DNA of 32,682 nucleotides. Source: Desulfobulbaceae bacterium. GTDB taxonomy: Bacteria; Desulfobacterota; Desulfobulbia; Desulfobulbales; VMSU01. Below the pieces are notes generated by a model, which made no database searches, had not been told where the DNA came from, and was given only the letters and a program-made list of their open reading frames with translations. Where the stretch lies: positions 1 through 32,682 of the forward strand of contig VMSU01000121.1 of NCBI GenBank assembly GCA_013792005.1, read 5' to 3'. A program made the translations under genes and the position numbers. This document shows, piece after piece, positions 1 to 31,045 of this stretch (its first letter is position 1; the number at the start of each line of letters is the position of its first letter).

Positions 1-441
1 AAAAAAGATGCCGCCCTGCTAGGATTAGAACTGGTGACCGAACCCATTAATAATTCCGAAGACTTCCAACTCGGATTCAAAAAGCTTTCCGGCAAGATTG
101 ATGCCTTCTGGGTACTGAATGACCCTATTATTTACACCTTAAACAATATGGACTGGCTTGAAAACCGCTGCCTCAGGGAAAAACTCCTCTGCGTTGGTCA
201 AAGCAAGAACCTGGCTATAAAGGGAATGGTCCTGACTGTCAACCCTGACAATAACCAGATCGCAGCCCAAGCCTCAGCAATAACCAAGAATATCCTGTCC
301 CACACCCAAAAGACCAGCAACCTGGAAGTCATGGCTCCGCTCGGCACCCAATTGCTGGTCAACCGCAAAACCGCTCAGCACATCGGACTTACCCTCTCCC
401 CCCAGGCCCTGAGCATCGCCACCTCTGTTATAGATCAATAA
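1..441 (+). CDS. ABC-type substrate-binding protein, C-terminal part (5' truncated)
   Basis: The frame is open from base 1 to a TAA at 439-441, so the gene begins outside the window; the first possible in-window start is GTG at 34, but the frame is coding before it. The roughly 146 visible residues match the C-terminal lobe of the ABC transporter substrate-binding family PF04392 (TrpX-like). The marks are a DAFWVLNDP segment, a VGQSKNLAIKGM segment, a later VNPDNNQIAAQA segment, and a final LLVNRKTAQHIGL segment where the family has an 'iN.k.A..lgl' ending. Such proteins bind small ligands in the periplasm, and the ligand cannot be told. No permease or ATPase gene follows; the next gene is 328 bases downstream, so any partners must lie upstream of the window. 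Family assignment is by remembered motif pattern. Confidence 0.7.
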   Translation, partial: KKDAALLGLELVTEPINNSEDFQLGFKKLSGKIDAFWVLNDPIIYTLNNMDWLENRCLREKLLCVGQSKNLAIKGMVLTVNPDNNQIAAQASAITKNILSHTQKTSNLEVMAPLGTQLLVNRKTAQHIGLTLSPQALSIATSVIDQ

Positions 442-769
442 CAATCCTCACGTGTCACTCTCCTGCAATGCGGGCCTCCCACTCACAGTGGGGCAGAGAA
501 AGTTGCAAACGCGTCAGACATTGCGTCTCTTACGATCATCAAGTCGTCACAAGTGCAATCAATTCACTTTATCCTGGCTATTTGTAACAGAAAAAAACCA
601 GCTCAAAAGCATCACAGAGCTACTTGACTGAATTTACTTCACTTTACAAAAAAATCAGTTTGACTTCACCTTTCACTTTCCACTATTCTTTAGTAAACGA
701 TCAGATTTCCACCAAGTCCCTGCCTGAATGTTCACACAATGTGACAAACGCTATCAAGAGGCCTTCACA
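442..769. other. Intergenic region upstream of the TonB receptor gene
   Basis: This 328-base stretch has no convincing gene. It contains a short perfect hairpin at 478-492 (CCCACT, loop CAC, AGTGGG) without a T tract, so it is not a clear terminator for the upstream gene. The right half is AT-rich and contains the candidate promoter listed separately. I see no cobalamin, FMN or TPP riboswitch pattern and no Fur-like palindrome that I would defend. Confidence 0.5.
660..689 (+). promoter_or_regulatory. Candidate sigma-70-type promoter of the TonB receptor gene
   Basis: TTGACT at 660-665 and TATTCT at 684-689 are separated by 18 bases, in an AT-rich tract about 80 bases before the chosen start codon. 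The match to consensus is moderate. A second TTGACT lies upstream near 624, so the exact promoter is uncertain. Confidence 0.35.
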
Positions 770-2935
770 ATGAACAACAAACGAGCGATCACCATCGCGG
801 CTCTTTCTTTCTTGTCCTGCGGAACCATGGCCATGGCCGGATCAACAACAAACAACACCAGCGATCAAGAGGCCAAAGCCTTCCTCTCAATGTTCGGCCA
901 AGGGCCTCAGGAAGAGGATGTCTACAGGACCGACCGGCTACTGCTCACTGCGACAGGATCTCTGAAACCGGTCCACCTGGCGCCGTCGGTGGCCTCGGTA
1001 ATCACCAAAGAGGACATCGAAGCCATGGGCGCCACCACCCTGGACGAGGTGTTGGAGACCGTGCCGGGGCTGCATGTCGAGTCCTCGGGGTTGCAGTATT
1101 TCTCTTCCATCTGGTCGATCCGCGGCATCCACACCAGCATAAACCCTCAGACCTTGCTGCTGATCAACGGAGTGCCCTTCACCTTCAACTTTATCGGTGG
1201 GCGGTATCAAACCTTCAAGATGCCCACGGCGATGATCTCGCGAGTCGAGGTGGTGCGAGGGCCAGGCTCTGCCCTGCACGGCGCCGACGCCTTCAGCGGC
1301 ACCATCAACGTTATCACCAAGGACAACTTCGAGATCGACGGCACCAAGGCCGGGGTGCGCTACGGCTCGTTTAACACCGTTGACACCTGGGTCCAACAGG
1401 GCGGCCAATACGGCGGCTGGGACCTGGCCTTGGGGGTAGAGTGGCAAAAGACTTCAGGCGACCACGACCGGATCATTGACCGGGACCGGATGCATGCCTT
1501 TCCACCAGCGCTGGGACTGGCCGCCTACTCCAAGGCCCCCGGTCCGCTGGACACCTCCTACGAGATCCTGGACACCCACCTGAACCTGCGCCGGGGCGAC
1601 TGGAACCTCCACCTCTACGGCACCCTGGAGGACAGTAGCGCCGGCGCGGGAGGCGCCCAGGCGATAACCGACGGCAACGATGCAGACACTAAGTCCCTAC
1701 TGGCCGACCTGAGCTACTCCAACGACCATAGCCTGGAAGACTGGACCCTGGGGGGACGGCTCTCCTACTCCTATATCAAGCAGGACTCCTTTCTCCAATA
1801 CTATCCACCAGCCACGTACCCTGCCATCCCGGCCCTCGCTTTCCTCAATATGCTGGGCGAACCGATCCAAACCAGCACCGACGGCGGCATTGAGACCAAC
1901 GCCCTGTACAAAGGATTCAAAGACCACCAGGTTCGTTTAGGCCTCGGGATGAAAAACTACAACTTCGACCGCGATCAGTACAAGAACTTCCTCTTTACTT
2001 ATGCCCCTCCACCCAACCCAGCCATTGCCATTGTCCCCTGGTTCCAGGTCACCGACCCAAGCCTGATTTATATCGACCAGGCCAGCCGCACCCTGTGGTA
2101 CGCCCTGATCCAGGACGAATGGCAACTGGCCCCGCGTTGGACCCTTACCGGCGGCGTCCGTCACGACGAGTACTCCGACTTCGGCTCCACCGTCAACCCC
2201 AGAGCGGCCCTGGTGTGGGAGACCCGCTACAACCTGACCACCAAACTGATGTACGGCACCGCCTTCCGAGCCCCATCTTTCAGCGAACAATTCGCCAAGA
2301 ACAACCCAGTCACCGTCGGCAATGCCAACCTCACACCGGAGGAGATCGAAACCGAGGAGCTGGCCTTCGATTACCAGCCGAGCAAGGACCTGCGCCTGAT
2401 CTTAAGCCTGTTTACCTATAAGGCCACCGAAATTATTGAAATAACACCAGCCGTTCCCATTTCTCAATTCACCAACTACGGAACCATAAGGGGCAAGGGC
2501 TTCGAGGTGGAAGCCGAGTGGCAGCTTGCTTCAAGCCTTATGCTACGCACCAACTTCGCCTACCAGCGGTCGAAAAACACCACGATAGACTCGCTGGTCG
2601 CCGATGCGCCGGAGATGCAGTTTTATCTGGCCCCGCACTGGGAGTTCCTGCCGGAATGGTCCTTGGACGGCCAATTCACCTGGGTTGGCGATCGCCCACG
2701 GGCCAAGGGTGACCCCAGACCTGAAATCAACACGTATGAACTGGTCAACCTCACCCTGCGCCGCACCAATATCGCCAAACACTGGGATGTGGCGCTGGCG
2801 GTACGCAACCTCTTTGACGAGAATGCCCGTATTCCCAGCCCTTACGCTCCGGGAGCGACAGATGGCGCCTATATCCCCAATGACTACCCGATGGCAACCA
2901 GAGCAGTATGGGCCGAGGTCAGTTGCCATTTTTGA
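770..2935 (+). CDS. TonB-dependent outer-membrane receptor
   Basis: A 721-residue ligand-gated outer-membrane channel that would import a scarce ligand (siderophore, cobalamin or other metal complex) using TonB/ExbBD energy. I chose ATG 770 over the in-frame ATG at 728: an AAGAGG ribosome site lies about 9 bases before it, and translation from 770 gives a typical signal peptide starting MNNKRAITIAALSFLSCG with a likely cut after AMA. A plug domain follows (about residues 45-185), with the TLDEVLETVPGLHV, WSIRGIH and VEVVRGPGSALHGADAFSG elements. The rest is a beta-barrel, with a TPEEIETEELAFDY strand motif and a last residue of Phe, as expected for BAM-inserted barrels. Substrate is unknown. 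It lies 141 bases before the citrate-synthase-like pair on the same strand, so it may import a precursor or product of that pathway; this is inference. Confidence 0.93.
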   Translation: MNNKRAITIAALSFLSCGTMAMAGSTTNNTSDQEAKAFLSMFGQGPQEEDVYRTDRLLLTATGSLKPVHLAPSVASVITKEDIEAMGATTLDEVLETVPGLHVESSGLQYFSSIWSIRGIHTSINPQTLLLINGVPFTFNFIGGRYQTFKMPTAMISRVEVVRGPGSALHGADAFSGTINVITKDNFEIDGTKAGVRYGSFNTVDTWVQQGGQYGGWDLALGVEWQKTSGDHDRIIDRDRMHAFPPALGLAAYSKAPGPLDTSYEILDTHLNLRRGDWNLHLYGTLEDSSAGAGGAQAITDGNDADTKSLLADLSYSNDHSLEDWTLGGRLSYSYIKQDSFLQYYPPATYPAIPALAFLNMLGEPIQTSTDGGIETNALYKGFKDHQVRLGLGMKNYNFDRDQYKNFLFTYAPPPNPAIAIVPWFQVTDPSLIYIDQASRTLWYALIQDEWQLAPRWTLTGGVRHDEYSDFGSTVNPRAALVWETRYNLTTKLMYGTAFRAPSFSEQFAKNNPVTVGNANLTPEEIETEELAFDYQPSKDLRLILSLFTYKATEIIEITPAVPISQFTNYGTIRGKGFEVEAEWQLASSLMLRTNFAYQRSKNTTIDSLVADAPEMQFYLAPHWEFLPEWSLDGQFTWVGDRPRAKGDPRPEINTYELVNLTLRRTNIAKHWDVALAVRNLFDENARIPSPYAPGATDGAYIPNDYPMATRAVWAEVSCHF

Positions 2936-3076: not shown

Positions 3077-3901
3077 ATGCCTCAAGCCAAAACCGACGTC
3101 ACCAAAAGAAACATTGATTTCGCCACCCGGACTGCTACCAAGATATGGAAAGAAGAGCCATCGGCGCACAATCCCTATCTGGCGGAAGAGTGCCTCTGTC
3201 ACGGCTACAGCCTGATCGAATTAATGGAAGGCCGGAGTTTCGTTGACACCCTATTCCTTCTCTTTCAAGGAGAACTCCCCTCCCCCGATCACGCAAGATT
3301 GCTGGAAATGACGTTGGTCGCCTTCTGCAACCCCGGCCCTCGGCACCCGGCCACCAGGGCGGCGATGAACGCAGGCGTTGGCAAAACCTCTCCGGCTCAC
3401 CTCCTTCCCATCGGACTCAACGTCCTCAGCGGCTCACACCTGGGAGGTCAAGAAGTAGAAGAGGCGATTCGTTTTTTACGGAAACACGCCGGGGACTTGC
3501 CGAATGAAATCGCCTTGGCCCTGCTGGCCCCCAACCGACCAGAAAACGGTGATTTCCACCTGGCTCCAGGCTTTGGCAGCCGATTTGGCGGGATAGACCC
3601 AATGCCAAAAAAAGTGGCGGATATTCTGACTGCCCACCATTCGTCAGGAGCAGCCCTGCAATGGGGGAAGGCCTTTGCCGAGACGATCCGCCCGGATAAC
3701 ATGGGATGGCTCAGCACCGGGGTGGTTGCCGCCGTGTTATGCGACCTCGGCTTTCACCCTCAGGCCGGGGCAGGAATGTTCCAACTGATTTGCGCACCAG
3801 GGATCCTGGCCCACGGCTTGGAACTCGCCAATAAACCGATCAGCGCCATGCCATTTCTAGACGAGGAACACTATGTCATTGAGCATAACACACCACGATA
3901 A
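3077..3901 (+). CDS. Citrate-synthase-fold protein 1, catalytic residues not conserved
   Basis: A 274-residue protein of the citrate synthase / citryl-CoA lyase superfamily (PF00285), shorter than ordinary citrate synthases (about 370-430). Family landmarks: an early YSLIELMEGRSFVDTLFLLF segment followed by GELP, a mid-protein GVGKTSPAHLLPIGL helix, SGSHLGGQEVEEAI where catalytic enzymes have GPLHGGANEAV, FGSRFGGIDP where they have GFGH.VYK.DPR, and DNMGWLSTG where they have NVDFYSG. At these three places the catalytic His, His and Asp appear to be displaced, Ser and Gly, so ordinary acetyl-CoA condensation is unlikely. It overlaps the next gene, a second citrate-synthase-like protein, by 29 bases, which suggests translational coupling and a heteromer. 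The alignment is by eye. Ribosome site before the ATG is weak. Confidence 0.78.
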   Translation: MPQAKTDVTKRNIDFATRTATKIWKEEPSAHNPYLAEECLCHGYSLIELMEGRSFVDTLFLLFQGELPSPDHARLLEMTLVAFCNPGPRHPATRAAMNAGVGKTSPAHLLPIGLNVLSGSHLGGQEVEEAIRFLRKHAGDLPNEIALALLAPNRPENGDFHLAPGFGSRFGGIDPMPKKVADILTAHHSSGAALQWGKAFAETIRPDNMGWLSTGVVAAVLCDLGFHPQAGAGMFQLICAPGILAHGLELANKPISAMPFLDEEHYVIEHNTPR

Positions 3902-4721
3902 CACCGCATTCTGGGACAACCGCCGCGGTGTGATCCGTACCCGGATCGGCGGCTGGATCCCGGGCAGAGCCGTTTACTGCCATGGGTACGACATGATGGA
4001 AGACCTGGTCGGCAAGGTCTCCTACTTCCAGGTACTGATGCTCAACGCTACGGGCCGGCTCCCGGATCGACGACTCGCCGACTGGATGGAGGCTTACTTT
4101 ATCGGTAACAGTTATCCGGATGCACGCATTTGGTGTAATCAAATCGGAAGTCTGGCCGGAACCATGCACACTTCTCCGCTTACCGCCACAAGCGCCGGCA
4201 TCCTGGCCTCGGATTCAAAAATGTATGGACCGGGGACAGTAATGGCAGGTGTAAACTTCTTTGTCGAGGCCCTGGCAAAAAAAATGAACGGCCTGTCGGC
4301 TGAAGAAATTGTCACCGACCAACAGAGGCACCCTAAGGCCAAACCTGTGATCATCGGCTACGCTCGCCCAATTGCCAACGGAGATGAAAGGATCGCCACC
4401 CTGGATCTCTTAGCAAAAAAATTAGGGTTTGAGCGGGGAGAACATCTGACCCTGGCATTTGAAATCGAGCAGGTAATATATAATAAAACCAAAGAACGCA
4501 TGAACCTTCTTGCTTATGTCCTGCCCTTTCTCTGCGACCAAGGCTATACTGCCCGAGAAATCTATCGCCTCTTAAGCGCCCTCGTCTATGCCGGTGTCGT
4601 CGCCTGTTATGGCGAGGCAGCTGACCAGCCGGGAGAAGCATTCTTCCCCCTGCAGTGCAATGATATCTACTATCAAGGTAAACCCTTACGAAAGATACCT
4701 GAAAAAAAGTGCCTCTCATGA
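3873..4721 (+). CDS. Citrate-synthase-fold protein 2, catalytic residues not conserved
   Basis: A 282-residue protein whose layout also follows citrate synthase / citryl-CoA lyase proteins: HGYDMMEDLVGKVSYFQVLML then GRLP near the N-terminus, YGPGTVMAGVNFFVEAL in the position of the GPLHGGANEAV helix, GYARPIANGDER in the position of GFGHP-DPR, and MNLLAYVLPFL in the position of NVDFALAAL. All three catalytic positions look substituted. The ATG at 3873 lies inside the end of the previous gene with a clear GAGGA site a few bases upstream; the stop TGA overlaps the ATG of the downstream dehydrogenase (ATGA). This is a coupled three-gene unit. The most economical idea is a heterodimer with protein 1 that acts as an acyl-CoA-binding or scaffold unit, or has a changed chemistry. 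Family call moderate, function unknown. Confidence 0.7.
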   Translation: MSLSITHHDNTAFWDNRRGVIRTRIGGWIPGRAVYCHGYDMMEDLVGKVSYFQVLMLNATGRLPDRRLADWMEAYFIGNSYPDARIWCNQIGSLAGTMHTSPLTATSAGILASDSKMYGPGTVMAGVNFFVEALAKKMNGLSAEEIVTDQQRHPKAKPVIIGYARPIANGDERIATLDLLAKKLGFERGEHLTLAFEIEQVIYNKTKERMNLLAYVLPFLCDQGYTAREIYRLLSALVYAGVVACYGEAADQPGEAFFPLQCNDIYYQGKPLRKIPEKKCLS

Positions 4722-5521
4722 ACCTCCTCACCAACAAGACCGCAATCATCACTGGCAGTTCTACAGGTATCGGCAAGGGAATAGCAGTCCTCTTTGCCCA
4801 ACTTGGAGCCCACGTTATCGTTACCAGTCGAACCATGGCACATGCTGCGCAAGTAGCAGACCAAATCCTGGCCGATGGCGGAAAGGCTACCCCGTGTGCC
4901 TTCAATCTTGAGCATCCAGAGGCTATCCCCGACCTGCTGTCCACCGCGTTAACCACCACAAGTCGAATTGACATCTTAGTTAACAACGCCTTAAGTCGAC
5001 CGTCAATACCTTCGGGCGCACTCCAGGACATGGCCTCCAGCCAGTTGCAAAGAGGCGTTACAGTTAACCTCACAAATGTCCTGGCACTAACTGCTGCAGC
5101 CTATCCCCATCTCAAGAAATCAGCTGGAGTTATCATAAATATCGGCTCGGCGGTAATCAACCGGCATACGGTAGGCGTCCCCTTGTACACCATCCTGAAA
5201 GGGGCACTAGCCCAAACGACCAAGGTCTTGGCCGCCGAGTGGGCCGAGTCTAGAATCCGGGTTAATCAAATCAATCCCGGCTTCGTTCGTACTGACTCTA
5301 TAATGACTCGGCAAACCAACGAAAACGCTCGCATGATAGTCGATCACTTCGAAAAACTCCACCCGCTTGGCCGGGTAGGCGAAGTTAAGGATATCGCCAC
5401 CCTTACCGCCTTCCTGGCTTCAAATGAGGCGAACTGGATCACAGGAGCTGTCATCGATATCGACGGCGGTTTCTCCATACAAGGTGCTAATTTTCCACAG
5501 CACAACAACCAAAGTAAATAA
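4718..5521 (+). CDS. Short-chain dehydrogenase/reductase (SDR)
   Basis: A classical SDR of 267 residues, expected to reduce or oxidise a keto/hydroxy group with NAD(P)(H) in the cytoplasm. The Rossmann motif TGSSTGIG is at residues 12-19, a VNNA segment follows near 90, the catalytic Ser lies in NIGSAV, the YxxxK pair is YTILK 14 residues later, and the end has the usual WITGAVIDIDGGFS pattern. Arg after the TSR segment (VIVTSR) leans toward NADP(H), though this is only suggestive. I chose ATG 4718, which overlaps the stop of the preceding gene as ATGA, over an in-frame GTG at 4709. Context places it as the redox step of the citrate-synthase-like / TPP-enzyme pathway. Substrate is unknown. 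Confidence 0.9.
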   Translation: MNLLTNKTAIITGSSTGIGKGIAVLFAQLGAHVIVTSRTMAHAAQVADQILADGGKATPCAFNLEHPEAIPDLLSTALTTTSRIDILVNNALSRPSIPSGALQDMASSQLQRGVTVNLTNVLALTAAAYPHLKKSAGVIINIGSAVINRHTVGVPLYTILKGALAQTTKVLAAEWAESRIRVNQINPGFVRTDSIMTRQTNENARMIVDHFEKLHPLGRVGEVKDIATLTAFLASNEANWITGAVIDIDGGFSIQGANFPQHNNQSK

Positions 5522-5685: not shown

Positions 5686-7386
5686 ATGAACGTAGCAGAA
5701 ATGATCGTGACAGCGCTAAGCATGGTCAAAGTAAAATACATCTTTGGCATTCCCGGCGGGGCAATCGAGGATCTCAATACCGCCATCTTCTTCAATGACC
5801 GGATCCAAGCCATAGTCACCAAACACGAAGAGGGCGCGGCCTTTATGGCCGACGGGTATGCCAGGGTCTCCGGCGAACTAGGTGTGTGCTGCGCCACATC
5901 GGGTCCTGGAGCCTCCAACCTGATTACCGGTCTAGCCTCGGCCTATGCCGATTCAATCCCGGTTCTGGCTCTCACCGGTCAAGTATCCACCTCAGTTTTC
6001 GGCAAAGGGGCGCTCCAAGAATCGGGGGCCGAAGGTGTCAACATGGTTTCCATCTTCAAAACCTTTACCAAATATTCCGGCATGCTGATCACCGAGGATC
6101 GGGCCCAGTATATGATCCAAAAGGCCGTCCGCCTCGCCACCACCGGGCCTACCGGGCCGGTGCATCTCAATTTGCCCATCAATCTGATGAAAAAAGAGGC
6201 CCCCGAAAAACTCGCCTTTGTTCTCAGGTCCAACGTCCGCCTCTTTGACTGCGAAGCGATCAAGAGAGCGGCGGAAAAACTGGTTACCGCCAAACACCCG
6301 GTGATCATCGCCGGCTGGGGTGTCGGTCTCTCCAAGGCTGCCTACGAACTTAAGGAACTGGCCCAAATCCTCAATATTCCGGTGGCCACCTCGCCCAAAG
6401 GTAAATCAGTGTTCCCGGAATCCCACGAACTGGCCTTAGGTGTCTTGGGTTTTGCCGGTAATCCGGTGGCCAAAGAGTATGTGATTGAGCAGGATGTCGA
6501 TGTCATGCTGGCGGTAGGCACCAGCTTCAACGAGATGATGACCGGTGGATGGAGCGATTGCCTGAAACCAAAGAGTTGCATGATTCACATCGACGTCAAC
6601 CCGGAGAACATCGGCAAAAATTACGACGTCTGCATCGGCCTGATCGGCGACGCCCGGGTTAACCTCAAGGAACTCTGCAAGGCGGTGGTAGATGTCAGGT
6701 CGAACATGGGCCTAAGACGCCCTGAACTAGATAAGGAAGTGGGTACGCTCAAAGCAAAACACGCCAAGGACGATCCTCAACCAATAACCAGAGACGGCCT
6801 TTACCACCCCCGACATCTGGTTGAGGACATCCAGGCACACTGCCCTGAAGACACAATCTACTTTGCTGACATGGGTTCCATTATGGCCTGGGCCACACGC
6901 TACATGAACCTTGATTTCCCCTACTCTTACATGATGGGAATGGGATTTGGATCCATGGGATATGCTGTGGCCGCTCCTGTAGGCGCAAAGCTCGCCCGTC
7001 CGGACCGCCCGGTAGTGGCCATGGTCGGAGACGGCAGCTTCCAGATGAACGGATTCGAGGTCGCCACTGCGGTCAATTACGATATCCCCGTGGTTTGGAT
7101 CGTCTTTAACAACGCCATGCTCGGCATGGTCTATCATGGCCGCAAGCTGTTCAAAAACCCGATACCTGAAGGCCTAGGCTCCCACTTCAAACGAGTAGAT
7201 TTCGCCAAGGTGGCCGAAGGATTAGGGGCGCGCGGAATACGACTCGACACCCCACGGGGTCTCACCAAGGAGCTGATGGATGATGTCTTTGCCTGCGGAC
7301 GACCGACAGTGATTGATGTAATCATCGACGAAGAGGCGGTGCCGCCAATCCACAGCCGAATCAAATCGGTTGAAAAATCAAGTTAA
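5686..7386 (+). CDS. Thiamine-diphosphate enzyme, acetolactate-synthase-like large subunit
   Basis: A 566-residue enzyme of the AHAS/POX family with three domains: N-terminal pyrimidine-binding, central, and C-terminal pyrophosphate-binding. The FGIPGGAIEDL loop, the catalytic Glu48 in KHEEGAAFMADGYAR, and SGPGASNLITGL match acetohydroxyacid synthase-type proteins. The ThDP motif is GDG at 448-450 followed by the NN pair near 475. A GGGAG-like ribosome site precedes the ATG. Reaction class: decarboxylation of a 2-keto acid and transfer of the acyl anion to an acceptor, or simple decarboxylation. No regulatory small subunit (IlvN) and no other branched-chain gene is nearby, which argues against a housekeeping ilvB. 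Placement after an SDR and before a sulfotransferase suggests secondary or specialised metabolism. Sulfoacetaldehyde acetyltransferase (Xsc) was considered, but the N-terminal motifs are those of AHAS-type proteins. Confidence 0.88.
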   Translation: MNVAEMIVTALSMVKVKYIFGIPGGAIEDLNTAIFFNDRIQAIVTKHEEGAAFMADGYARVSGELGVCCATSGPGASNLITGLASAYADSIPVLALTGQVSTSVFGKGALQESGAEGVNMVSIFKTFTKYSGMLITEDRAQYMIQKAVRLATTGPTGPVHLNLPINLMKKEAPEKLAFVLRSNVRLFDCEAIKRAAEKLVTAKHPVIIAGWGVGLSKAAYELKELAQILNIPVATSPKGKSVFPESHELALGVLGFAGNPVAKEYVIEQDVDVMLAVGTSFNEMMTGGWSDCLKPKSCMIHIDVNPENIGKNYDVCIGLIGDARVNLKELCKAVVDVRSNMGLRRPELDKEVGTLKAKHAKDDPQPITRDGLYHPRHLVEDIQAHCPEDTIYFADMGSIMAWATRYMNLDFPYSYMMGMGFGSMGYAVAAPVGAKLARPDRPVVAMVGDGSFQMNGFEVATAVNYDIPVVWIVFNNAMLGMVYHGRKLFKNPIPEGLGSHFKRVDFAKVAEGLGARGIRLDTPRGLTKELMDDVFACGRPTVIDVIIDEEAVPPIHSRIKSVEKSS

Positions 7387-7503: not shown

Positions 7504-8643
7504 GTGACGGTTCCTAACCAAAAACACAAGGCAACAACAATGTTTGTTATATACTTTCGCACCGTGCTGGTGAGTTGGAAGATTTATGGTCCAGGGAAGG
7601 TCTTCTTTTCCGTGTTGCTTGGAGAACCACTCCTCCGCTGTTTTCACGCTGCCACCCTCTGGCTTGACCGGATCTTTTTCCCCGGCTACCTGAGGATGGA
7701 GGTAAAAAGACCGGTATTCATCATCGGCCACCCCCGAAGCGGCACCACCTTTCTCCATCATCTGCTGACCAAATGCGACCAGGCGGCTGCTTTCCCATGC
7801 TGGCACATTTTATTTCCAGCGCTGACCGGTCGAGTCCTGGTCGGTCCCTTGATCCGCCGGCTGATCAATTCGGGTAAGGCTGAAGTGATGCCGGAATGGA
7901 CCGGTCACGCCATGGCTCTTGACAAGGTAGAGGAGGAGGAGATGCTCTTTCTCCACAACTTCGACACCCAGTTTGTAACCGCTGGGTTACTGGGCTTCGA
8001 TGAGCGGGAGTATCCGGAATTACACTTTCACGATCTCCAGCCACAACAGCGAAGATTTCGCTCCATGCGTTTTCTTAACGGATTGTTTCAACGCCAGATC
8101 CACAGCACCGGCAAGAGTCAAATCATTGCTCAAACCCATTTTTCCACCCACCGCCTCAAAACAATGTTGGAGTTCTACCCGGATGCAAAGTTTATATACA
8201 TTATTCGCAACCCCCACCATGTTGTGCCCTCCTTTCTCTCGCTGCTCCACAACAGCATCGAGTTCCGTTGGGGACTGAGTAAAATCCCAAAAACGATGCT
8301 TGATCGGTATAACCAGAGGCGTTACCAGGCGATTATTGATCTCTATACGTATTTCCATGACCTCCAGACTCAAGGAGAAATTCCCGCTGACCGGGTCATG
8401 GTGCTGCCCTACGAACTGCTTCGTAACGATCTGGAAACCGCCTTCAACCGAATCATTGATTTCACTGGCATTCGGGCAAATGACTCGTTAAGAGAGTTTG
8501 TCACCAAAAGAGCGTCCACCCAACAACAATATCAGAGAAAGCACAAAGTCAAGGACCTTAAAGAATTCGGCCTAAGTCACGCTCAGATCAACAAGGACTT
8601 TGCCTTTGTCTTTACCGCCTACGATTTCCCCGAAGACTCATAG
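7504..8643 (+). CDS. PAPS-type sulfotransferase family protein
   Basis: A 379-residue protein of the Sulfotransferase_3-like family (PF13469), expected to move a sulfuryl group from PAPS to a hydroxyl or amine. The 5'-phosphosulfate loop is seen as GHPRSGTT at residues 75-82, and the 3'-phosphate-binding strand as FIYIIRNPHHVVPSFLSLL around residue 235. A GTG start at 7504 is favoured because a near-perfect AAGGAGG lies 10 bases before it; the next in-frame ATG is at 7540. The N-terminus has a hydrophobic stretch, so membrane association is possible. It follows the SDR and TPP-enzyme genes on the same strand and may add sulfate as the tailoring step. The acceptor is unknown. Family confident, pathway role inferred. 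Confidence 0.85.
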   Translation: MTVPNQKHKATTMFVIYFRTVLVSWKIYGPGKVFFSVLLGEPLLRCFHAATLWLDRIFFPGYLRMEVKRPVFIIGHPRSGTTFLHHLLTKCDQAAAFPCWHILFPALTGRVLVGPLIRRLINSGKAEVMPEWTGHAMALDKVEEEEMLFLHNFDTQFVTAGLLGFDEREYPELHFHDLQPQQRRFRSMRFLNGLFQRQIHSTGKSQIIAQTHFSTHRLKTMLEFYPDAKFIYIIRNPHHVVPSFLSLLHNSIEFRWGLSKIPKTMLDRYNQRRYQAIIDLYTYFHDLQTQGEIPADRVMVLPYELLRNDLETAFNRIIDFTGIRANDSLREFVTKRASTQQQYQRKHKVKDLKEFGLSHAQINKDFAFVFTAYDFPEDS

Positions 8644-8863: not shown

Positions 8864-10633
8864 ATGTGGAAACGCCCCTCCATAAGCACCTACCTCATCA
8901 CCATGAATATGCTGCTGCTCGGCCTGCTTTTTCCGGCCTTCAGCTTCCTGTTCATGAAGGAGATAACCCACCTCCGCGATACCCAGCTTGAACGCAACAT
9001 CAATACTATTCGCCAGTCCCTGACCACAAGTATGACCTCCATGGTGCGTAGCACCGCGTTAAGCGCCAATGAGGCAGTGGCCGGATACAATTTCACCTTC
9101 CTGCAAAATCTGCTGGCCGAGGTCTCACTCGATGATCAGGAAATTAAGTCATGCATGATTATCGACCAACACCAGATGATTGTCGCCCACAGCGACAAAA
9201 CCCAAATCGGCAGCGCCTTAACCCGCGCCGCAGACAAAAGGATCTCCACTCTATTAACCTCGAAATTTCCACCATCGATACAGTCAAACATGACCAGCTC
9301 AAAAGCAGAACTCAAGGCAGAAATTATCTGGCCAGACAAGGAAGAGGCGGATGGTGTGATGACAGCGGCATTCCCCATCTACCTCAGCAATGCTTTATGG
9401 GGCATCATCCGCTGCGACCACTCCACGACAACAGTCAATCAGCAGATTACCCAGGCAAAGGAAGAGTGGGCCATCCAACTGCATCAGGCAAAAAACTACT
9501 TCATAGGACTACTGGTCTTCTTTCTCGGCGCTGGTTTTGTCATTGCCATCCTCTTAACCCGATCTTTCGTACGTTCAACCCAAATACTGCACACCGGCGT
9601 CCAGCAGGTGGCAATGGGAGATCTCGACATGGAAATCTCCATCCAGGGAGTGGTCTGTGAAGAGTTTCTCGACCTGATCTTCTCTTTCAACTCCATGACC
9701 GAAAGGCTGAAGGATAGTCAAAGAAAACTGGAAGACTACTCCCGCTCACTGGAAGATAAAGTCTTGGAACGAACCCAAGCTCTGCATGAAACCCAACAGA
9801 TCTTGGTCCAACAAGCACACGAAGCAGGGCTTGCCGAGATGGCGGTCGGTGTTCTCCATAATATCGGCAATGCCATTACCCCGGCTAAAGTTGCGACCAC
9901 AGTGCTCAGCAATCAGCTCACCGCCAGCCCCTTGCGCCACAGGCTGGAGCAAGCGCTGACGCCGCTGCGCGATTACCTGAATGGCAGCCGAGAACTCTCT
10001 CCTCAGGAACGGCAAAAATTCGCCACCCTCCTCCACCACCTACCTACCAGCCTGATAGAAGAGTACGACAGGACAATCCGAGAGCTTAAAGATATCCAAG
10101 ACAAGCATCATCATATCGAAACTATCATCAAACTGCAGATGCGCTACGCCAAGGTGAAGGAATATACCGAACTCGTCGATATTTCGCGTCTGGCACAGGA
10201 CGCTATCAAAATCATAGCGGACGCCATTACCAAACGGCACATCACCCTGATGCTTGACATCCAAGAGACTCCGCTGATCCGGACAGAGGAATCAAAGATC
10301 CTGCAAGTCATGGTCAATCTGATCAAAAACTCTTATGAAGCCATGGACACAACCGATGTCTCAACCCGCGAATTGACTGTTTTCACCGGGGTCTGCCCCA
10401 GCAAACCAGACTGGGTGCTGTTCTCGGTCAAGGATACTGGCTGCGGTTTCACAGCAGAGGAAAAACTCCAGCTTTTCAATTACGGATACTCCACCAAGCA
10501 ACGAGGAAGCGGCTTTGGCCTGCACTCCTGCGCCAACACCATTATCGCCAATCACGGCATCATTGAGGCGACAAGCGCAGGCCCCGGCAAGGGGGCGGAA
10601 TTCAGCATCCTCCTGCCCATCACAGCTGAATAA
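8864..10633 (+). CDS. Membrane sensor histidine kinase
   Basis: A 589-residue two-component sensor: first membrane helix at about residues 10-30, a periplasmic sensor domain to about 205, second membrane helix in NYFIGLLVFFLGAGFV, a HAMP linker, a coiled coil (EDKVLERTQALHETQQ), then a phosphoacceptor region with His332 in GVLHNIGNAI. The H-box type is the GVLHN(I/V)GN variant. The ATPase shows the N box VNLIKNSYEAM, G1 DTGCGF, and G2 GSGFGLHS. It has no receiver domain and so should signal to a separate partner; the REC-kinase-REC protein 392 bases downstream is the obvious candidate. The start is uncertain: ATG 8864 has a poor ribosome site, and ATG 8903 is an alternative but would cut the first helix. 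Ligand not predictable. Confidence 0.9.
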   Translation: MWKRPSISTYLITMNMLLLGLLFPAFSFLFMKEITHLRDTQLERNINTIRQSLTTSMTSMVRSTALSANEAVAGYNFTFLQNLLAEVSLDDQEIKSCMIIDQHQMIVAHSDKTQIGSALTRAADKRISTLLTSKFPPSIQSNMTSSKAELKAEIIWPDKEEADGVMTAAFPIYLSNALWGIIRCDHSTTTVNQQITQAKEEWAIQLHQAKNYFIGLLVFFLGAGFVIAILLTRSFVRSTQILHTGVQQVAMGDLDMEISIQGVVCEEFLDLIFSFNSMTERLKDSQRKLEDYSRSLEDKVLERTQALHETQQILVQQAHEAGLAEMAVGVLHNIGNAITPAKVATTVLSNQLTASPLRHRLEQALTPLRDYLNGSRELSPQERQKFATLLHHLPTSLIEEYDRTIRELKDIQDKHHHIETIIKLQMRYAKVKEYTELVDISRLAQDAIKIIADAITKRHITLMLDIQETPLIRTEESKILQVMVNLIKNSYEAMDTTDVSTRELTVFTGVCPSKPDWVLFSVKDTGCGFTAEEKLQLFNYGYSTKQRGSGFGLHSCANTIIANHGIIEATSAGPGKGAEFSILLPITAE

Positions 10634-11025: not shown

Positions 11026-12735
11026 ATGACACAGAATCAAACTAATCCTGAGCGAATCCTGATCATCGACGATGATCAGGCTATATGGAAATCATACCGT
11101 CAGGTTCTCTGCCCGACCACCCCTGAACCAGATTCATCGTTGGCAAAGATCAACGAAATTCTACTCGGCGGCGGGACACAAGGAAACGACTCCAATTTTG
11201 TCCTCTCCTTTGCCAATCAAGGACAAGATGGATACCAAATGGTTGCCGACTCCAAGGAGCAAAACCCCTTCGCCTTGGCTTTTGTTGATATCAGGATGCC
11301 TCCAGGCTGGGACGGGATGGAGACCGCAGTAAAAATCCGCCAACTCGATCCTGACATTGAGCTGGTAATCGTCACTGCATACTCCGACCGGTCGATGGAG
11401 GAGATCGTCCGTGCTGTGGGTTCCCCTGACAAGCTTCTCTTCCTGCACAAGCCCTTTGATCCGGATGAACTCAAGCAGATAACCCGTTCAATGACCAGCA
11501 AGTGGCGAATGGCCAGAATGGAAGAACAGCAACGCCACGCACGGGAACGTATCGAGGAACAGCTGCATCAGGCCCAAAAGATGGAGGCGATAGGTACCCT
11601 GGCCGGTGGCATTGCCCATGATTTTAACAATATCCTCTCTGCTATCATGGGCTACACCGATCTTGCCCTGATGCGGATAAAGGGAACGCATCCGGAGGTT
11701 GAATCAGATCTGGAACAGGTCCGTAAGGCATCCATCCGAGCCACCGACTTGGTCAGGCAGATCCTGACCTTCAGTCGCCGCCAGACCAGAGAAAAATCCC
11801 CACTGCTTATTTCCGTGATCATCAAAGAAGCGATGAAGTTGCTTCGCGCCTCAATCCCCACCACCATCGATATCCGTGAAGAGATCAGTTCCCAGGCAAC
11901 AATCCTGGCTGATGCCACCCAATTACATCAGCTGGTCATGAACCTCTGCACCAACGCCTATCACGCCATGGCTGACTATAGCGGAGTACTGACGGTCACA
12001 CTCCATGACACAACCCTTGCTGAGGGGGAGATCATCGTCAACAATACGCCAATTGCCGCCGGTAACTATGTAACGCTCAGCATCAAAGATACCGGAACCG
12101 GCATCCCCCACTCGGTCATTGCCAACATTTTTGATCCATATTTCACCACCAAGGAAAAAGGGAAGGGTACCGGCATGGGACTTGCCGTGGTCAAAGGAAT
12201 TGTCGACAGCCACAACGGAGCAATAACCGTGGACAGTGAGCCTGGCCAAGGTTCTATTTTCAAGGTCTATTTACCCGCAAGCACAGCAGGAAGTGGCGCA
12301 GAGAAAGTTATTGACGCTTCATTCTCCGTCAAGCTATTATCCACCCGCCACGAACGAATCATGGTGGTCGATGACGAAAGTTCACTCAGAGAATTGGCAT
12401 ATCAATTCCTGACCGCTGCCGGATATCGGGTTGACCTCTTCGCCAACGCCGAAGAGGCATCTAACGCCTTGACCCAAAACCCTCACGCCTGGCACCTGCT
12501 GCTGACAGATCTGACCATGCCCGGCATGACTGGAGAGCAATTGGCCATCAAGGCCAAACAAATCAAGCCCGATCTTCCCATCATCATCTGTTCCGGCGAC
12601 ATCCAGTCCTTGACAAACAAAGAGATTGCAGAACTCAACACCTCCACCTGTCTCCAAAAACCTATTGACTCAACCAGCCTGCTCACGGCTGTCGCCGAGT
12701 CGCTAAGAGCACGAGACAACAAGTCCTCAGATTGA
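11026..12735 (+). CDS. Hybrid signalling protein: receiver - histidine kinase - receiver
   Basis: A 569-residue cytoplasmic protein with no membrane helix. Receiver 1 covers about residues 10-155, with acidic pocket D15-D17, phosphoacceptor Asp88 in FVDIRMPP and Lys142 in HKPF; it carries an insertion of about 35 residues before the Asp strand. A coiled coil leads to the kinase, with His198 in GGIAHDFNNIL, N box VMNLCTNAYHAM, G1 DTGTGIP, F box FDPYFTTK and G2 GKGTGMGLAVV. Receiver 2 starts near residue 445 (MVVDDES) with phosphoacceptor Asp495 in LTDLTMPGMTG. There is no DNA-binding or cyclase output, so it must pass phosphate on. Start ATG 11026 has an AGGG site 5 bases upstream. Probable partner of the upstream membrane kinase, by position only. 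Confidence 0.93.
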   Translation: MTQNQTNPERILIIDDDQAIWKSYRQVLCPTTPEPDSSLAKINEILLGGGTQGNDSNFVLSFANQGQDGYQMVADSKEQNPFALAFVDIRMPPGWDGMETAVKIRQLDPDIELVIVTAYSDRSMEEIVRAVGSPDKLLFLHKPFDPDELKQITRSMTSKWRMARMEEQQRHARERIEEQLHQAQKMEAIGTLAGGIAHDFNNILSAIMGYTDLALMRIKGTHPEVESDLEQVRKASIRATDLVRQILTFSRRQTREKSPLLISVIIKEAMKLLRASIPTTIDIREEISSQATILADATQLHQLVMNLCTNAYHAMADYSGVLTVTLHDTTLAEGEIIVNNTPIAAGNYVTLSIKDTGTGIPHSVIANIFDPYFTTKEKGKGTGMGLAVVKGIVDSHNGAITVDSEPGQGSIFKVYLPASTAGSGAEKVIDASFSVKLLSTRHERIMVVDDESSLRELAYQFLTAAGYRVDLFANAEEASNALTQNPHAWHLLLTDLTMPGMTGEQLAIKAKQIKPDLPIIICSGDIQSLTNKEIAELNTSTCLQKPIDSTSLLTAVAESLRARDNKSSD

Positions 12736-14813: not shown

Positions 14814-15284
14814 ATGAGAAACCATGCCTGGCGCCCGCTGGTCGTGGCGATTGCCGCCGTTGCTCTGCTACTGTTAGTACGAGCAACTGTGGTCCCGTCT
14901 GACTTCGGGGTGAATGGAAGAAATTTCACTTACGGATTTTACAGGAAAGGCAGTGTCGATGACTGGAATGCCTTCAAAGTCAAATACAAAGGCAAGGACT
15001 ATTGCCGGGACTGCCATGAAAACAAAACCACCGAAAACATGAGTTCACCCCACAAGGTTATCGAGTGCGAAAACTGCCACGGACCAGCCATTGACCATCC
15101 GGAAAATCCAGAGAAATTAGACATCGACCGCAGCCGAGAGCTTTGCCTGCGTTGCCATGCAGCCCTCCCCTATCCCCAAAGTCATCGCGCTGAAATGCCC
15201 GCCATTGACCCCCATGAGCATAATCCCAAACAGGCCTGCGTCGAATGTCATAATCCGCATAACCCGAATTTGGAGGCCATGTGA
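14814..15284 (+). CDS. Membrane-anchored tetraheme c-type cytochrome
   Basis: A 156-residue protein with an N-terminal hydrophobic helix (about residues 8-27) that serves as signal/anchor, then a periplasmic domain with four CxxCH heme sites at residues 64-68, 85-89, 111-115 and 142-146. Additional His residues (80, 124, 134, 136, 149) could be the second axial ligands. The size and heme count fall between NrfH-type quinol dehydrogenases and small multiheme cytochromes of sulfate reducers. An AAAGGAGG site sits just before the ATG. The next gene starts inside its stop codon (TGATG), so cytochrome, FeS protein and NrfD protein form one operon and most likely one membrane redox complex exchanging electrons between the quinone pool and a periplasmic partner. 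An isolated TATAAT at 14752-14757 may be part of its promoter. Confidence 0.92.
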   Translation: MRNHAWRPLVVAIAAVALLLLVRATVVPSDFGVNGRNFTYGFYRKGSVDDWNAFKVKYKGKDYCRDCHENKTTENMSSPHKVIECENCHGPAIDHPENPEKLDIDRSRELCLRCHAALPYPQSHRAEMPAIDPHEHNPKQACVECHNPHNPNLEAM

Positions 15285-16054
15285 TGAACGCCAACAGACG
15301 AAAATTCTTAAAAAACGCACTTACCGTGGGTGTCGCTTCATCGTTACCACTGTCCGCCTTCAAACTGCTTAACCCCGATGAAGTCAGGGCATCCATCGGC
15401 GACGACAACGTTCGTTGGGCCTTCCTGGTTGATATCCAAAAGTGTGTAGGTTGCGGATTCTGCGTCAAAGCCTGCAAACTGGAAAATGAAATCCCCTATG
15501 ACGCCCCAATTACCAGAACCTGGGTGGAACGATATGTAGTCACCAAGGATGGCAAGTCCCACATCGACACCCCCATGGGTGGAAGGGACGGCTATACCAG
15601 CGCCAGAATCCATGACCAAGACATCCCGCCGGAGGAAATCACCAAAGCATTTTTCGTACCCAAGCTCTGTAACCAGTGCCAGAACCCGGCATGCGTTCAG
15701 GTCTGCCCGGTAGGGGCCACGTACCAGACCAATGATGGCGTAGTCTTAATCGACCGCTCTTGGTGCATCGGTTGCGGATATTGCATCATGGCCTGCCCCT
15801 ATGGAGTTCGTTTTTTTCATCCTGTCACCAAAACAGCTGAAAAATGCACCTTCTGCTACCACCGTATCAACCAAGGACTACAGAGCGCCTGTGTCCAAGC
15901 CTGTCCGTTCGGGGCCAGACAACTCGGCAACTTGAAGGACCATGACGACCCGGTCACCAAGACCATCATGACTCAACGAGTGTCAATACTGAAAGACGAA
16001 TATGGCACTAAACCCCAGGTCTACTACATTGGCCTTGACGAGAGAGTGAGGTAA
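15284..16054 (+). CDS. Tat-exported ferredoxin-like protein with four [4Fe-4S] clusters (NrfC/DsrO-like)
   Basis: A 256-residue periplasmic electron-transfer subunit. The N-terminus has a twin-arginine signal (NRRKFLKNAL) and a hydrophobic stretch. Four Cys clusters are visible in the order expected of the NrfC/DsrO/HybA family: CVGCGFCVKACK, CNQCQNPACVQVCP, CIGCGYCIMACP and CTFCYHRINQG followed by CVQACP. ATG 15284 is preferred to GTG 15281 because GGAGG is 7 bases upstream of it and the codon overlaps the cytochrome stop. Expected to sit on the periplasmic face of the NrfD membrane protein encoded 4 bases downstream and pass electrons between it and the cytochrome. No molybdopterin or other catalytic subunit is encoded beside it. 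The assignment to DsrO rather than NrfC cannot be made from motifs alone. Confidence 0.93.
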   Translation: MNANRRKFLKNALTVGVASSLPLSAFKLLNPDEVRASIGDDNVRWAFLVDIQKCVGCGFCVKACKLENEIPYDAPITRTWVERYVVTKDGKSHIDTPMGGRDGYTSARIHDQDIPPEEITKAFFVPKLCNQCQNPACVQVCPVGATYQTNDGVVLIDRSWCIGCGYCIMACPYGVRFFHPVTKTAEKCTFCYHRINQGLQSACVQACPFGARQLGNLKDHDDPVTKTIMTQRVSILKDEYGTKPQVYYIGLDERVR

Positions 16055-16058
16055 GAAA

Positions 16059-17306
16059 ATGCTAGATGAATTAATTGTGCATGGTCTGGAATGGACCATC
16101 AAGGATGGATTTGTATACCCGAATGAGTTTATCTACTGGAGCATTCAGATCGTCATGTACCCTTACATGACAGGTTTGGTGGCCGGGGCCTTCGTCTTGT
16201 CGTCTCTTTACCATGTCTTCGGCCAAAAGGACCTCCAGGGAATCGCCCGTTTTTCGCTGGTGTTTTCGCTGGCACTTCTACCGACCGCCATGATGCCGCT
16301 GCTTCTCCATCTTCAGCAGCCGCTCAGGGGGCTGAATGTCATGTTCACCCCCCATTTCACCTCAGCCATCGCCGCTTTTGGCATCGTCTTCTCGACCTAT
16401 GCCATGATTGTTTTGAGTGAAATATGGTTTGTCTACCGGAAATACTTCGTTGAACAAAGCATCGCCATGAAAGGACAACCCGGCTTCGCCAACAACTTTA
16501 TGCATATCCTCTATTCCATCCTCACCCTTGGGGCGACAAACATGGATGACGCGGCACTAGTCATCGACAAAAAAGGGGTCAAAATCCTGGCTGGAATCGG
16601 TATCCCAGTAGCCTGCTTCCTGCACGGCTATGCCGGATTCATCTTTGGATCGGTCAAGGCCAATGCCCTGTGGATGTCACCGCTGATGCCGGTTATCTTC
16701 ATCATGAGCGCCGTAGTGTCGGGCATTGCCCTCTGTATGCTGACCTATATCATCATTATGGAGTTCAAGAAATTCAAAGCGACACTGGCTCGGGGACGCG
16801 GCGACGAAACAGTCAAGGAGTTAGGCGGGGTAGAGATGGACGTAATCAGCAAGACCAGCCGCTATCTGATCGGATTTCTGGTCGCGGCGATCTCTTTGGA
16901 GCTATTAGATTTAATCTTCAGAGGCTATACCGCCATGAAGTCATGGGACATCCTGCGTGACGTGATGTTTCACGAAGATTTTGTCAAGATCTTCATTCTA
17001 CAGTACGGATTAGGCAACCTGCTGCCTTTTTTGTTGCTGATGTTACCCAAACCATCCATCAAACGAATGGTGGTCGCCCTATTACTGGTTCTGTTCGGGG
17101 TCTTCATGATGCGGTGGAACGTAGTTATCGGCGGCCAGGCATTTTCCTTGTCCTTTGAAGGCTTCATGCACTACCACCTGCCAATCATTCCCCATAACCT
17201 TGAAACATATAAGGAAGGTTTGTTTGGGGCCTTGACCGTGGTAACCACCCCGTTCGTAATTTTCTGGTTGATCAATAAGATTATCCCCTCACTGCAGAAA
17301 GTCTGA
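16059..17306 (+). CDS. NrfD/PsrC-family quinone-interacting membrane protein
   Basis: A 415-residue integral membrane protein with about 10 hydrophobic helices and the NrfD-type arrangement: W-x-I-Q-I at the start of helix 1 (YWSIQIVMYPYMTGLVAGAF), a long second helix run, and a conserved-looking GYAGFIFGSVKANALWMSPLMPV segment in the middle. NrfD proteins exchange electrons between quinol and the periplasmic FeS subunit and in some complexes are thought to move protons. It follows the FeS gene by 4 bases with a GAGG site, and the operon ends at the strong terminator at 17332. The three-subunit set lacks an enzyme subunit, so the final donor or acceptor is unknown; a soluble cytochrome pool is plausible. 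Confidence 0.92.
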   Translation: MLDELIVHGLEWTIKDGFVYPNEFIYWSIQIVMYPYMTGLVAGAFVLSSLYHVFGQKDLQGIARFSLVFSLALLPTAMMPLLLHLQQPLRGLNVMFTPHFTSAIAAFGIVFSTYAMIVLSEIWFVYRKYFVEQSIAMKGQPGFANNFMHILYSILTLGATNMDDAALVIDKKGVKILAGIGIPVACFLHGYAGFIFGSVKANALWMSPLMPVIFIMSAVVSGIALCMLTYIIIMEFKKFKATLARGRGDETVKELGGVEMDVISKTSRYLIGFLVAAISLELLDLIFRGYTAMKSWDILRDVMFHEDFVKIFILQYGLGNLLPFLLLMLPKPSIKRMVVALLLVLFGVFMMRWNVVIGGQAFSLSFEGFMHYHLPIIPHNLETYKEGLFGALTVVTTPFVIFWLINKIIPSLQKV

Positions 17307-27881: not shown

Positions 27882-28322
27882 ATGGAATATCGCTCGGGAA
27901 AAACAGGCAGGATAATCGTGATTCGCTTTGACAATGACGATGACCTGTTACAAGGATTGAAGCACATTGTACAAAAAGAGGGGATTAAGGCAGCTTATTT
28001 CACAATCTTTGGTGGATTACAGCAAGCAGACGTTGTGACTGGCCCCATAGAGCCAACTATACCACCAGTGCCTGTTTGGGCGAAGATAGATGAAGCTAGG
28101 GAAGTTGTGGGGCTTGGGAGCATTTTTTTAGACGAAAATGACGAGCCAAGAATCCATCTCCACTCGGCCCTTGGACATCACGGGCAAACAACAACCGCCT
28201 GTATCAGGAAAGGAACCAAAACGTACCTCCTCTTAGAGGCATATCTTACTGAAATTCTTGAAATCAATATAACTCGACCATGGTTTGCGGATGGCCAATT
28301 TTACCGAATATGTTTTAGTTAG
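27882..28322 (+). CDS. PPC-domain (DUF296) protein, putative DNA-binding
   Basis: A 146-residue protein spanning one PPC domain (PF03479): an N-terminal VIRFDNDDDLLQGLKHIVQ strand-helix, EGIKAAYFTIFGGLQQADV, and the core HLHSALGHHGQTTTACIRKG with a YLLLEAYLTEI strand, matching the plant/prokaryote 'HlH.slg..g....gghl..G' core. The His residues could bind a metal. In plants this domain is part of AT-hook proteins; bacterial single-domain members have no settled function. It starts 9 bases after the yjgA-family stop, so it is probably in the same transcript. Its stop codon lies inside the left arm of the long terminator hairpin. Confidence 0.82.
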   Translation: MEYRSGKTGRIIVIRFDNDDDLLQGLKHIVQKEGIKAAYFTIFGGLQQADVVTGPIEPTIPPVPVWAKIDEAREVVGLGSIFLDENDEPRIHLHSALGHHGQTTTACIRKGTKTYLLLEAYLTEILEINITRPWFADGQFYRICFS

Positions 28323-28377
28323 TATAGCACACAAAAAAACCGGCATAATGCCGGTTTTTTTGTGTGCTACACTAACT
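28317..28377. terminator. Long bidirectional hairpin terminator between the PPC gene and rplQ
   Basis: Two 30-base arms (28317-28346 and 28348-28377) pair with a single mismatch around one central base. The core is A7-CCGGCAT and ATGCCGG-T7, giving a U run on both strands. It overlaps the PPC gene stop (28320-28322) and lies 21 bases past the rplQ stop. Confidence 0.92.
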
Positions 28378-28398
28378 GTATTTTTGAATTTTAGTACA

Positions 28399-28794
28399 TT
28401 AATTACTTTCTGTTATAATCTCGGAAGATTCACTTTCTTTGTAATTAACCAATTCTAATATTGCCATTGGTGCGGCATCACCTATACGATTCCCAGTCCT
28501 GATGATTCTTGTATATCCACCATTCCTGTCCATATAGTCATTCTTTAAATTATCAAATAATTTAGCAACAATCTCATCTTTCTTCATAAATGCTAACGCT
28601 TGTCGTCGTGCGTGCAAATCGCCACGCTTAGCCAACGTCATCATTTTATCAACCATTTTCCGAGCTTCTTTGGCTTTCGGAGTCGTTGTTACAATCCTTT
28701 CATGCTCAAAAAGAGAGGTAACCATATTCCGAATCATAGCATCTCGATGCGATGAATTACGTCCAAGTCTTCTTCCTGCTTTTCTATGTCTCAT
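28399..28794 (-). CDS. rplQ: 50S ribosomal protein L17
   Basis: A 131-residue ribosomal protein of the large subunit, near the polypeptide exit. [20 protein letters not shown] is the L17 start, followed by [19 protein letters not shown] and a [20 protein letters not shown] segment. It extends with a short acidic tail beyond the normal end. Last gene of the rpoA operon, 23 bases after rpoA; AAGG lies 10 bases before its ATG. Confidence 0.97.
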
Positions 28795-28817
28795 TGTAAT
28801 ATAACCTTATTCTCAGT

Positions 28818-29876
28818 TTACAAATCTTCTTGGGGTTCCTGTGAGGGTGGTTGTACCCAACCTTCAACCTTCATTCCCAACGACAGACCCATTTCAGAAA
28901 GTAATTGCTTAATTTCATTCAATGACTTTCGACCAAAATTTTTGGTCTTCAGCATTTCTGTTTCGGTTTTTTGTACTAATTCACCGATATATTTTATGTC
29001 CGCATTTCGCAAGCAATTAGCTGAGCGGACAGAAAGCTCAAGATCATCAACACTTCTATATAAATTTTCATTTACAGCGATAAGAGTTGCGTCGGATGAT
29101 TGCTCAATTTCTGGCTCAACACGATCTTCATCAAAATTAATGAAAATTCTCATCTGCTCCTTGAGAATTTTTGCAGCATAAGCAAGCGAATTCTCAGGGG
29201 TGATACTTCCATCAGTATGAATTTCCATTGTCAACTTATCATAATCAGTCTGTTGACCAACTCTTGCTTGACTAACAACGATTTTCACCTTCTGGATCGG
29301 CGTAAATATTGCGTCAATCGGGAAGGTATCAATACTCATATCTTCAGTTTTATTATTTTCTGCTGGTGAATATCCTTTTCCCCATCTAACCTGAAACTCA
29401 GCAACCATCTTGCCTTCACTTCCGGTTATAGTACAAATGTGTTGTTCAGGATTCATCACTTCAACCATACCATCAGGTGAAATAATATCAGCAGCTGTCA
29501 CTGGTCCCTTATCTGTTTTTTCTATTCGTATGACGGCTGAATTCTGCGAATTTAAACGGAGCCTAACTTCCTTTAAATTAAGTATAATTTCAATAACATC
29601 TTCCAAAACACCAGGAATCGTTGAATATTCATGATGTGCACCTTCAATATTAACAGAAGTGATCGCAGCACCTTGAATGGAAGACAATAATATTCTTCTC
29701 AAGCAATTTCCAACGGTTGTTGCAAAACCACGTTCCAAAGGCTGGCATGTAAATTTACCATATCTATTGGTATGCGTTGCAGAATCAACCTCTAGCCGTT
29801 CTGGTAGGATAAGTTCTGTCCAATTACGATAAATTGGGTCAGAATCCATTTGAATATTCAAGTCAGTATGAGTCAT
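28818..29876 (-). CDS. rpoA: DNA-directed RNA polymerase alpha subunit
   Basis: A 352-residue alpha subunit. The N-terminal assembly domain shows [19 protein letters not shown], then [22 protein letters not shown]; the C-terminal domain shows [20 protein letters not shown] and the helix-hairpin-helix [20 protein letters not shown], which binds UP elements and activators. Full length, with a slightly longer N-terminus (about 18 residues before the NW.ELI start). Ribosome site is poor, but it is 8 bases after rpsD, so translational coupling is likely. Confidence 0.98.
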
Positions 29877-29884
29877 ATTGTGTC

Positions 29885-31007: not shown

Positions 31008-31045
31008 TTTCTATTCTCCTGATATATGTATATAAAATATAACAA

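Follow-up and report, generated by a model that had tools for sequence, protein, structure and literature searches.

PqsBC, which acts in the pathway of the Pseudomonas quinolone signal, is a heterodimer of the FabH fold, with none of the three catalytic residues left in PqsB and two of them in PqsC (PMC4807248), and in carbazole biosynthesis a thiamine-diphosphate (ThDP) enzyme, CqsB3 or NzsH, and an enzyme resembling ketoacyl synthase III (KAS III), CqsB1 or NzsJ, form a known condensation pair. A further point of reference is citryl-CoA (coenzyme A) lyase, as in structure 6hxp, together with the lyase module of ATP-citrate lyase (the PRK06224 group). Here we compare with these systems a gene pair, CSa and CSb, carried by a contig of 32,682 nucleotides from a Desulfobulbaceae bacterium (VMSU01000121.1; 'the window' below is this entire contig, C121, of a draft genome of 4.0 Mb). 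Both genes encode proteins predicted to have the citryl-CoA lyase fold, and both products lack the catalytic His/His/Asp residues. In the reading that we favour, to which we assign a probability of roughly 0.4, the CSa/CSb heterodimer carries out the condensation in a pathway to a small molecule, which is sensed by the cluster's own receptor and kinases.

CSa (positions 3077–3901, plus strand) and CSb (3873–4721, plus strand) both start with ATG, encode 274 and 282 amino acids respectively, and overlap by 29 nucleotides in different reading frames. They are neighbours on the same strand, with overlapping frames, in all 43 examined loci that carry both genes (exact overlap lengths across the family are approximate, the CSb start points having been set by homology). 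Carriers are some sulfate reducers and related bacteria, cable bacteria included. The pair is present in 26 of 258 genomes of the order, the carriers related to the source genome being Desulfobulbales-type metagenome-assembled genomes and the cable bacterium Candidatus Electrothrix aarhusensis; in 18 of 195 genomes of a second class of the phylum, as judged by CSb, with a weak 19th match; and in one distant genome, G295. This patchy occurrence suggests that CSa and CSb are gained and lost as one unit. Intact frames and residues invariant in two classes of the phylum rule out a decaying pseudogene pair. Phage and plasmid origins were also considered and rejected: a viral scan gave no relative, and plasmid matches were distant (<33% identity), those that are annotated being named citryl-CoA lyase. 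A literature search on this gene combination found nothing relevant.

Both proteins match the NCBIfam citryl-CoA lyase models of the PRK06224 group (E values of 7.5e-23 for CSa and 4.3e-17 for CSb), with scores far under the curated cut-offs (80.9 vs 261 bits for CSa with NF004864, 62.1 vs 245 for CSb with NF004866); against PF00285, CSa scores 19.6 bits with a cut-off of 27 and CSb has no match. The closest solved structure for each, by sequence and by Foldseek, is the citryl-CoA lyase 6hxp. AlphaFold2 models of the two chains (predicted local distance difference test scores of 88.7 for CSa and 79.3 for CSb) match citryl-CoA lyases first and citrate synthases next, and VIA-align, which ranks Foldseek's own candidates and does not thereby exclude other folds, aligns CSa with 6hxp at Z 21.8 (240 residues, root-mean-square deviation 4.4) and CSb with 6hxn at Z 20.1 (222 residues, 3.2). 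Profile-profile comparison scored either protein against four lyase-like proteins at 99.5% probability, and the two against each other at 99.3%. A citryl-CoA lyase/citrate synthase fold for both chains is supported by these predictions, and the matches to 6hxp and 6hxn in sequence and structure place their nearest kin in the short citryl-CoA lyase branch, not among full-length citrate synthases; 'citrate synthase' should be read here as the name of a fold only. In a phylogenetic tree all CSa proteins form one clade (96/92) and all CSb proteins another (100/99), and together they are separate from the single-gene lyases (94/92). The two clades are likely, though not certain, to be sisters, because the tree is rooted on one distant citrate synthase. 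A preliminary description of this DNA, made by eye from the letters, had seen here adjacent degenerate paralogs of the citrate-synthase type; the models agree with it on the fold, and the paralogy is likewise supported, along with strict pairing and two sister clades.

Residues of the former active site were counted in 43 CSa and 41 CSb homologues with the numbering of pig citrate synthase, the equivalences following our alignment and general knowledge of that enzyme. The His274/His320/Asp375 triad is present in none of them. At the position of His274 CSb has Tyr or Met and CSa has Leu, with no conserved His; a His lies one residue away in 27 of the 43 CSa proteins, including H121 of the window, and is not conserved family-wide. 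The register of CSa at this point is uncertain by one residue, which is the sole serious doubt concerning loss of the triad. His320 is replaced by Ser in 31/43 CSa and by Arg (R165) in every CSb, and Asp375 by Thr, Pro or Ser in CSa and by Asn, Gly, Leu or Ala in CSb. A fourth active-site residue, the oxaloacetate-binding His238, is Pro in 40/43 CSa and 40/41 CSb, with one CSa having His. The absence of His/His/Asp from both chains, proposed in the preliminary description for this genome, is therefore not peculiar to it and extends throughout the family. The alignment by eye on which that proposal rested was sound in its conclusion and mistaken in the register of NMGWLS (the Asp position is the T of W-L-S-T-G), and it is possibly off by one residue at the first His. 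An ordinary citrate synthase or citryl-CoA lyase is ruled out by the family-wide lack of the triad, and a normal citrate synthase is encoded elsewhere in the source genome (L086). Parts of an ATP-citrate lyase are likewise ruled out, as no ATP-grasp or CoA-ligase partner was seen in the clusters.

What occupies the old site is strongly conserved. In place of the D-H motif of lyases and synthases, CSa has a loop N85-P-G-P-R89 (3329–3343, plus strand), with R89 in 43/43 homologues, and CSb a loop P82-D-A-R-I-W-C-N89 (4116–4139, plus strand; family pattern P82-D-x-R85-I-W-C-N89), with R85 in 40/41; R89 and R85 share an alignment column, such that a new Arg has been gained in both chains. The CSb segment GYARPIANGDER (4356–4391, plus strand) contains R165, at the catalytic His position, and R173, the retained substrate Arg equivalent to R329. 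Equivalents of R329, N373 and R421 are each found in 41/41 CSb and in none or nearly none of the CSa proteins, and in the lyase-type AH..E helix the AH is kept in 41/43 CSa and the His is changed to Cys in 40/41 CSb. The former active site is crowded by invariant Arg, Asn, Trp and Cys residues. From these alignments the two chains appear to have retained different, complementary parts of the ancestral site, and their strict pairing, sister clades and complementary residues support a putative obligate heteromer with a changed reaction, and lend good, if indirect, support to the heterodimer proposed in the preliminary description.

The best clue to that reaction comes from the surrounding genes. 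One of them encodes an acyloin-synthase-like, ThDP-dependent carboligase of the acetolactate synthase superfamily (5686–7386, plus strand), with intact KHEEGAA and GDG...NN motifs, the ThDP Glu, and three thiamine pyrophosphate (TPP) domains. Its closest solved kin are BbmA (1.3e-143; phmmer 483 bits) and then CsmA (3.3e-92; 313 bits), ScyA-related proteins appear among its NCBIfam relatives, and its best NCBIfam model, acetolactate synthase, is matched under the cut-off (432 vs 538 bits). Among the 44 loci in which neighbours were counted, 38 contain a thiamine enzyme, and most of the exceptions are loci truncated by contig ends. Eleven loci of the second class have an enzyme of another subfamily, 32–36% identical to that of the window, and the one examined is also closest to BbmA and CsmA in the PDB; two distinct families therefore occupy the thiamine role. 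All six second-class genomes with the window-type enzyme also carry CSa/CSb.

Members of the acetolactate synthase superfamily often have small, regulatory subunits, and CSa/CSb could be a non-catalytic regulator of the thiamine enzyme that binds a CoA ester or keto acid, or a scaffold for it, as the presence of a superfamily member nearby in most loci and the loss of all catalytic residues from both chains would suggest. We regard this as unlikely, since in the Desulfobulbales the pair lies immediately 3' of the TonB receptor gene and often apart from the thiamine gene, in the second class pair and thiamine gene are on opposite strands, invariant polar residues crowd the old site, and in one genome, G015, it is an enzyme that fills the slot. 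Of the two possibilities raised in the preliminary description, a scaffold and a new C-C bond enzyme, we prefer the latter, because of these conserved residues and because of a context comprising a thiamine carboligase, tailoring enzymes and the G015 replacement.

That replacement emerged from a comparison of genomes in which the window-type thiamine enzyme occurs without CSb. G015 has a gene for a divergent KAS III with Cys/His/Asn (L155:11606–12622) that lies immediately 3' of its TonB gene, shares the strand of that gene and adjoins the thiamine gene, and a separate housekeeping FabH is encoded elsewhere in the genome; KAS III stands in for CSa/CSb in this slot. The G013 locus ends at a contig end. 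Several observations weigh against a condensing role for the pair. The KAS III replacement is seen in one genome only. Three cable-bacterium genomes (G078, G082 and G083; loci L151, L152 and L153), which share a genus code with the Electrothrix genomes, have the cluster without the pair and without any KAS III, and the condensing step is therefore not universal. These three retain the binding proteins, the thiamine enzyme and a TonB receptor 75–76% identical, and carry instead an ABM-fold protein along with a different sulfotransferase and, in two of them, a B12 radical S-adenosylmethionine (SAM) protein (TIGR04072). In a distant locus, L080, the pair is accompanied by genes for sensors and peptide-binding proteins, and the 14 kb covered contain no thiamine enzyme. 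Finally, both active sites, and not one alone, are without all catalytic residues.

The conserved cluster consists of phosphonate-type and PF04392 periplasmic binding proteins, the TonB-dependent receptor, CSa-CSb, the thiamine enzyme, tailoring enzymes and sensor kinases. Tailoring in the window is represented by a short-chain dehydrogenase/reductase (SDR) oxidoreductase (4709–5521, plus strand; PF13561, 2.8e-49), in place of which related loci have other enzymes, and by a sulfotransferase of the type using 3'-phosphoadenosine-5'-phosphosulfate (PAPS; 7504–8643, plus strand; PF13469, 4.1e-27). Across the 44 loci the enzymes expected to act on a hydroxyl are exchangeable, with a sulfotransferase in 11 (the window's own locus included), an SDR in 14, a PapA/condensation-type acyltransferase in four, adenosine-5'-phosphosulfate (APS) kinase in three, where it adjoins the sulfotransferase, and an O-methyltransferase in two; the source genome encodes an APS kinase elsewhere. 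We note that the PapA-like gene of Ca. Electrothrix aarhusensis (L042:11603–12963) is in two reading frames, and is whole in a relative (L044).

Such enzymes bear on an alternative in which the TonB receptor feeds a catabolic cluster and CSa/CSb, with new catalytic residues, works as a lyase or decarboxylase on the thiamine product or an imported substrate. The close kinship to citryl-CoA lyases is consistent with this, as is an Azoarcus plasmid on which a canonical lyase sits with a thiamine enzyme, a CoA transferase and shikimate-pathway genes, but tailoring by sulfotransferase/APS kinase, O-methyltransferase and PapA-like acyltransferase belongs to biosynthesis, and the examined clusters have no conserved inner-membrane transporter, CoA ligase or CoA transferase; we find a catabolic role improbable. 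The plasmid genes themselves (Azoarcus sp. KH32C, L133), with shikimate/quinate-type genes among them, possibly constitute an undescribed degradation route.

The TonB-dependent outer membrane receptor (728–2935, plus strand; PF00593, 2.4e-42; PF07715, 4.2e-22) is kept in 41/44 loci and lies immediately 5' of CSa/CSb in most. Downstream in the window are a membrane sensor histidine kinase (8864–10633, plus strand) with an HATPase domain and weak Cache-like sensor and HAMP matches, and a hybrid histidine kinase/response regulator (11026–12735, plus strand); a GGDEF/EAL response regulator is found in the cluster in the second class (L078). The window begins with the C-terminal part of a periplasmic PF04392 ABC_sub_bind protein (1–441, plus strand; 3.8e-8), whose gene is interrupted by the contig start. 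The N-terminal part of a PF04392 protein and a phosphonate-binding-like protein are encoded at the end of contig C217; the last 16 bases of C217 (L160:5068–5083) are those of window positions 1–16, AAAAAAGATGCCGCCC, the PF04392 frame runs on, and C217 is apparently contiguous with the start of the window. Further upstream on C217 is a candidate YcaO-like protein with tetratricopeptide (TPR) repeats, recognized by eye. The most distant CSa/CSb pair (L080:3514–13420) is accompanied by two peptide-type binding proteins, a dCache histidine kinase and a phosphatase-like protein.

A TonB-dependent receptor adjoining biosynthetic genes also invites the explanation that the product is a metallophore and that the receptor imports its metal complex, the more so as alpha-hydroxy acids chelate metals. 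We consider this quite improbable, as no siderophore synthetase, exporter or ABC permease is conserved in the clusters, and two solitary periplasmic binding proteins with histidine kinases better match sensing; the sensing genes adjoin CSa/CSb without permeases.

Within the favoured reading of a condensing step, we propose the following course. CSa and CSb would form an obligate heterodimer of the citryl-CoA lyase fold from which the enolising His/Asp machinery has been lost. The thiamine enzyme would supply the second substrate, presumably a tertiary alpha-hydroxy acid, shaped like the citrate or citryl-CoA that the fold normally binds, and CSa/CSb would acylate it with an acyl-CoA. The nucleophile could arise by loss of CO2 from a bound beta-keto acid, decarboxylation replacing enolisation, so that a base for enolising acetyl-CoA would no longer be needed and the base residues could go; the carboxylate might be held by R85, R165 and R173 of CSb and R89 of CSa. 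The hydroxyl would be modified species by species with sulfate, methyl or acyl groups, and the product, a signal or signal-like diffusible metabolite, would exit the cell, to be detected or imported by way of the TonB receptor, periplasmic binding proteins and histidine kinases. This full version, in which sulfate reducers, cable bacteria and relatives sense their own signal, made by a thiamine acyloin synthase together with a decarboxylative acyl-CoA condensing heterodimer that has the citrate-synthase fold and lacks its catalytic set, is possible but somewhat doubtful.

Elsewhere in the window, a multihaem cytochrome, a ferredoxin-type iron-sulfur protein and NrfD form an operon (14814–17306) for a respiratory complex unrelated to CSa/CSb, and a drop in G+C content to 36–39% across 28001–32682, compared with ∼50% elsewhere, suggests acquired DNA.

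If a condensing role is correct, the citrate-synthase fold would join the condensing enzymes of small-molecule signalling, a metabolic lyase would have become a heterodimer devoid of its catalytic residues, and a candidate system of chemical signalling, complete with a receptor, would be at hand in cable bacteria and other Desulfobacterota. Even if the pair is a mere binding module, its genes are easily mislabelled citryl-CoA lyase by similarity and should not be taken as a sign of citrate metabolism.

With citryl-CoA lyase and the corresponding module of ATP-citrate lyase, CSa and CSb share fold, length and parts of the sequence, CSb retaining the R329 and N373 equivalents and a C-terminal Y-x-G...R and CSa the AH..E helix; they differ in lacking His/His/Asp, in probably working as two distinct chains instead of a homomer, and in model scores far under the cut-offs. 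The carbazole system likewise combines a thiamine carboligase with a condensing enzyme, and the likeness is closest in G015, where KAS III takes the place of CSa/CSb; in contrast to that system, the partner here has the citrate-synthase fold, the product, tailoring and receptor genes differ, and no CqsB2-type cyclase was seen in the clusters. In PqsBC, as probably in CSa/CSb, a condensing fold has become heterodimeric and has given up canonical active-site residues, in that case within a signal pathway (PMC4807248), but PqsBC has the FabH fold and PqsC retains a Cys/His dyad, whereas CSa and CSb both lose the whole set. CSa and CSb are, like PqsB and PqsC, two adjacent divergent paralogs of one fold, though not of the FabH/thiolase fold, and by this analogy the pair is best described as a putative counterpart of PqsBC in logic, and not as a member of its family.
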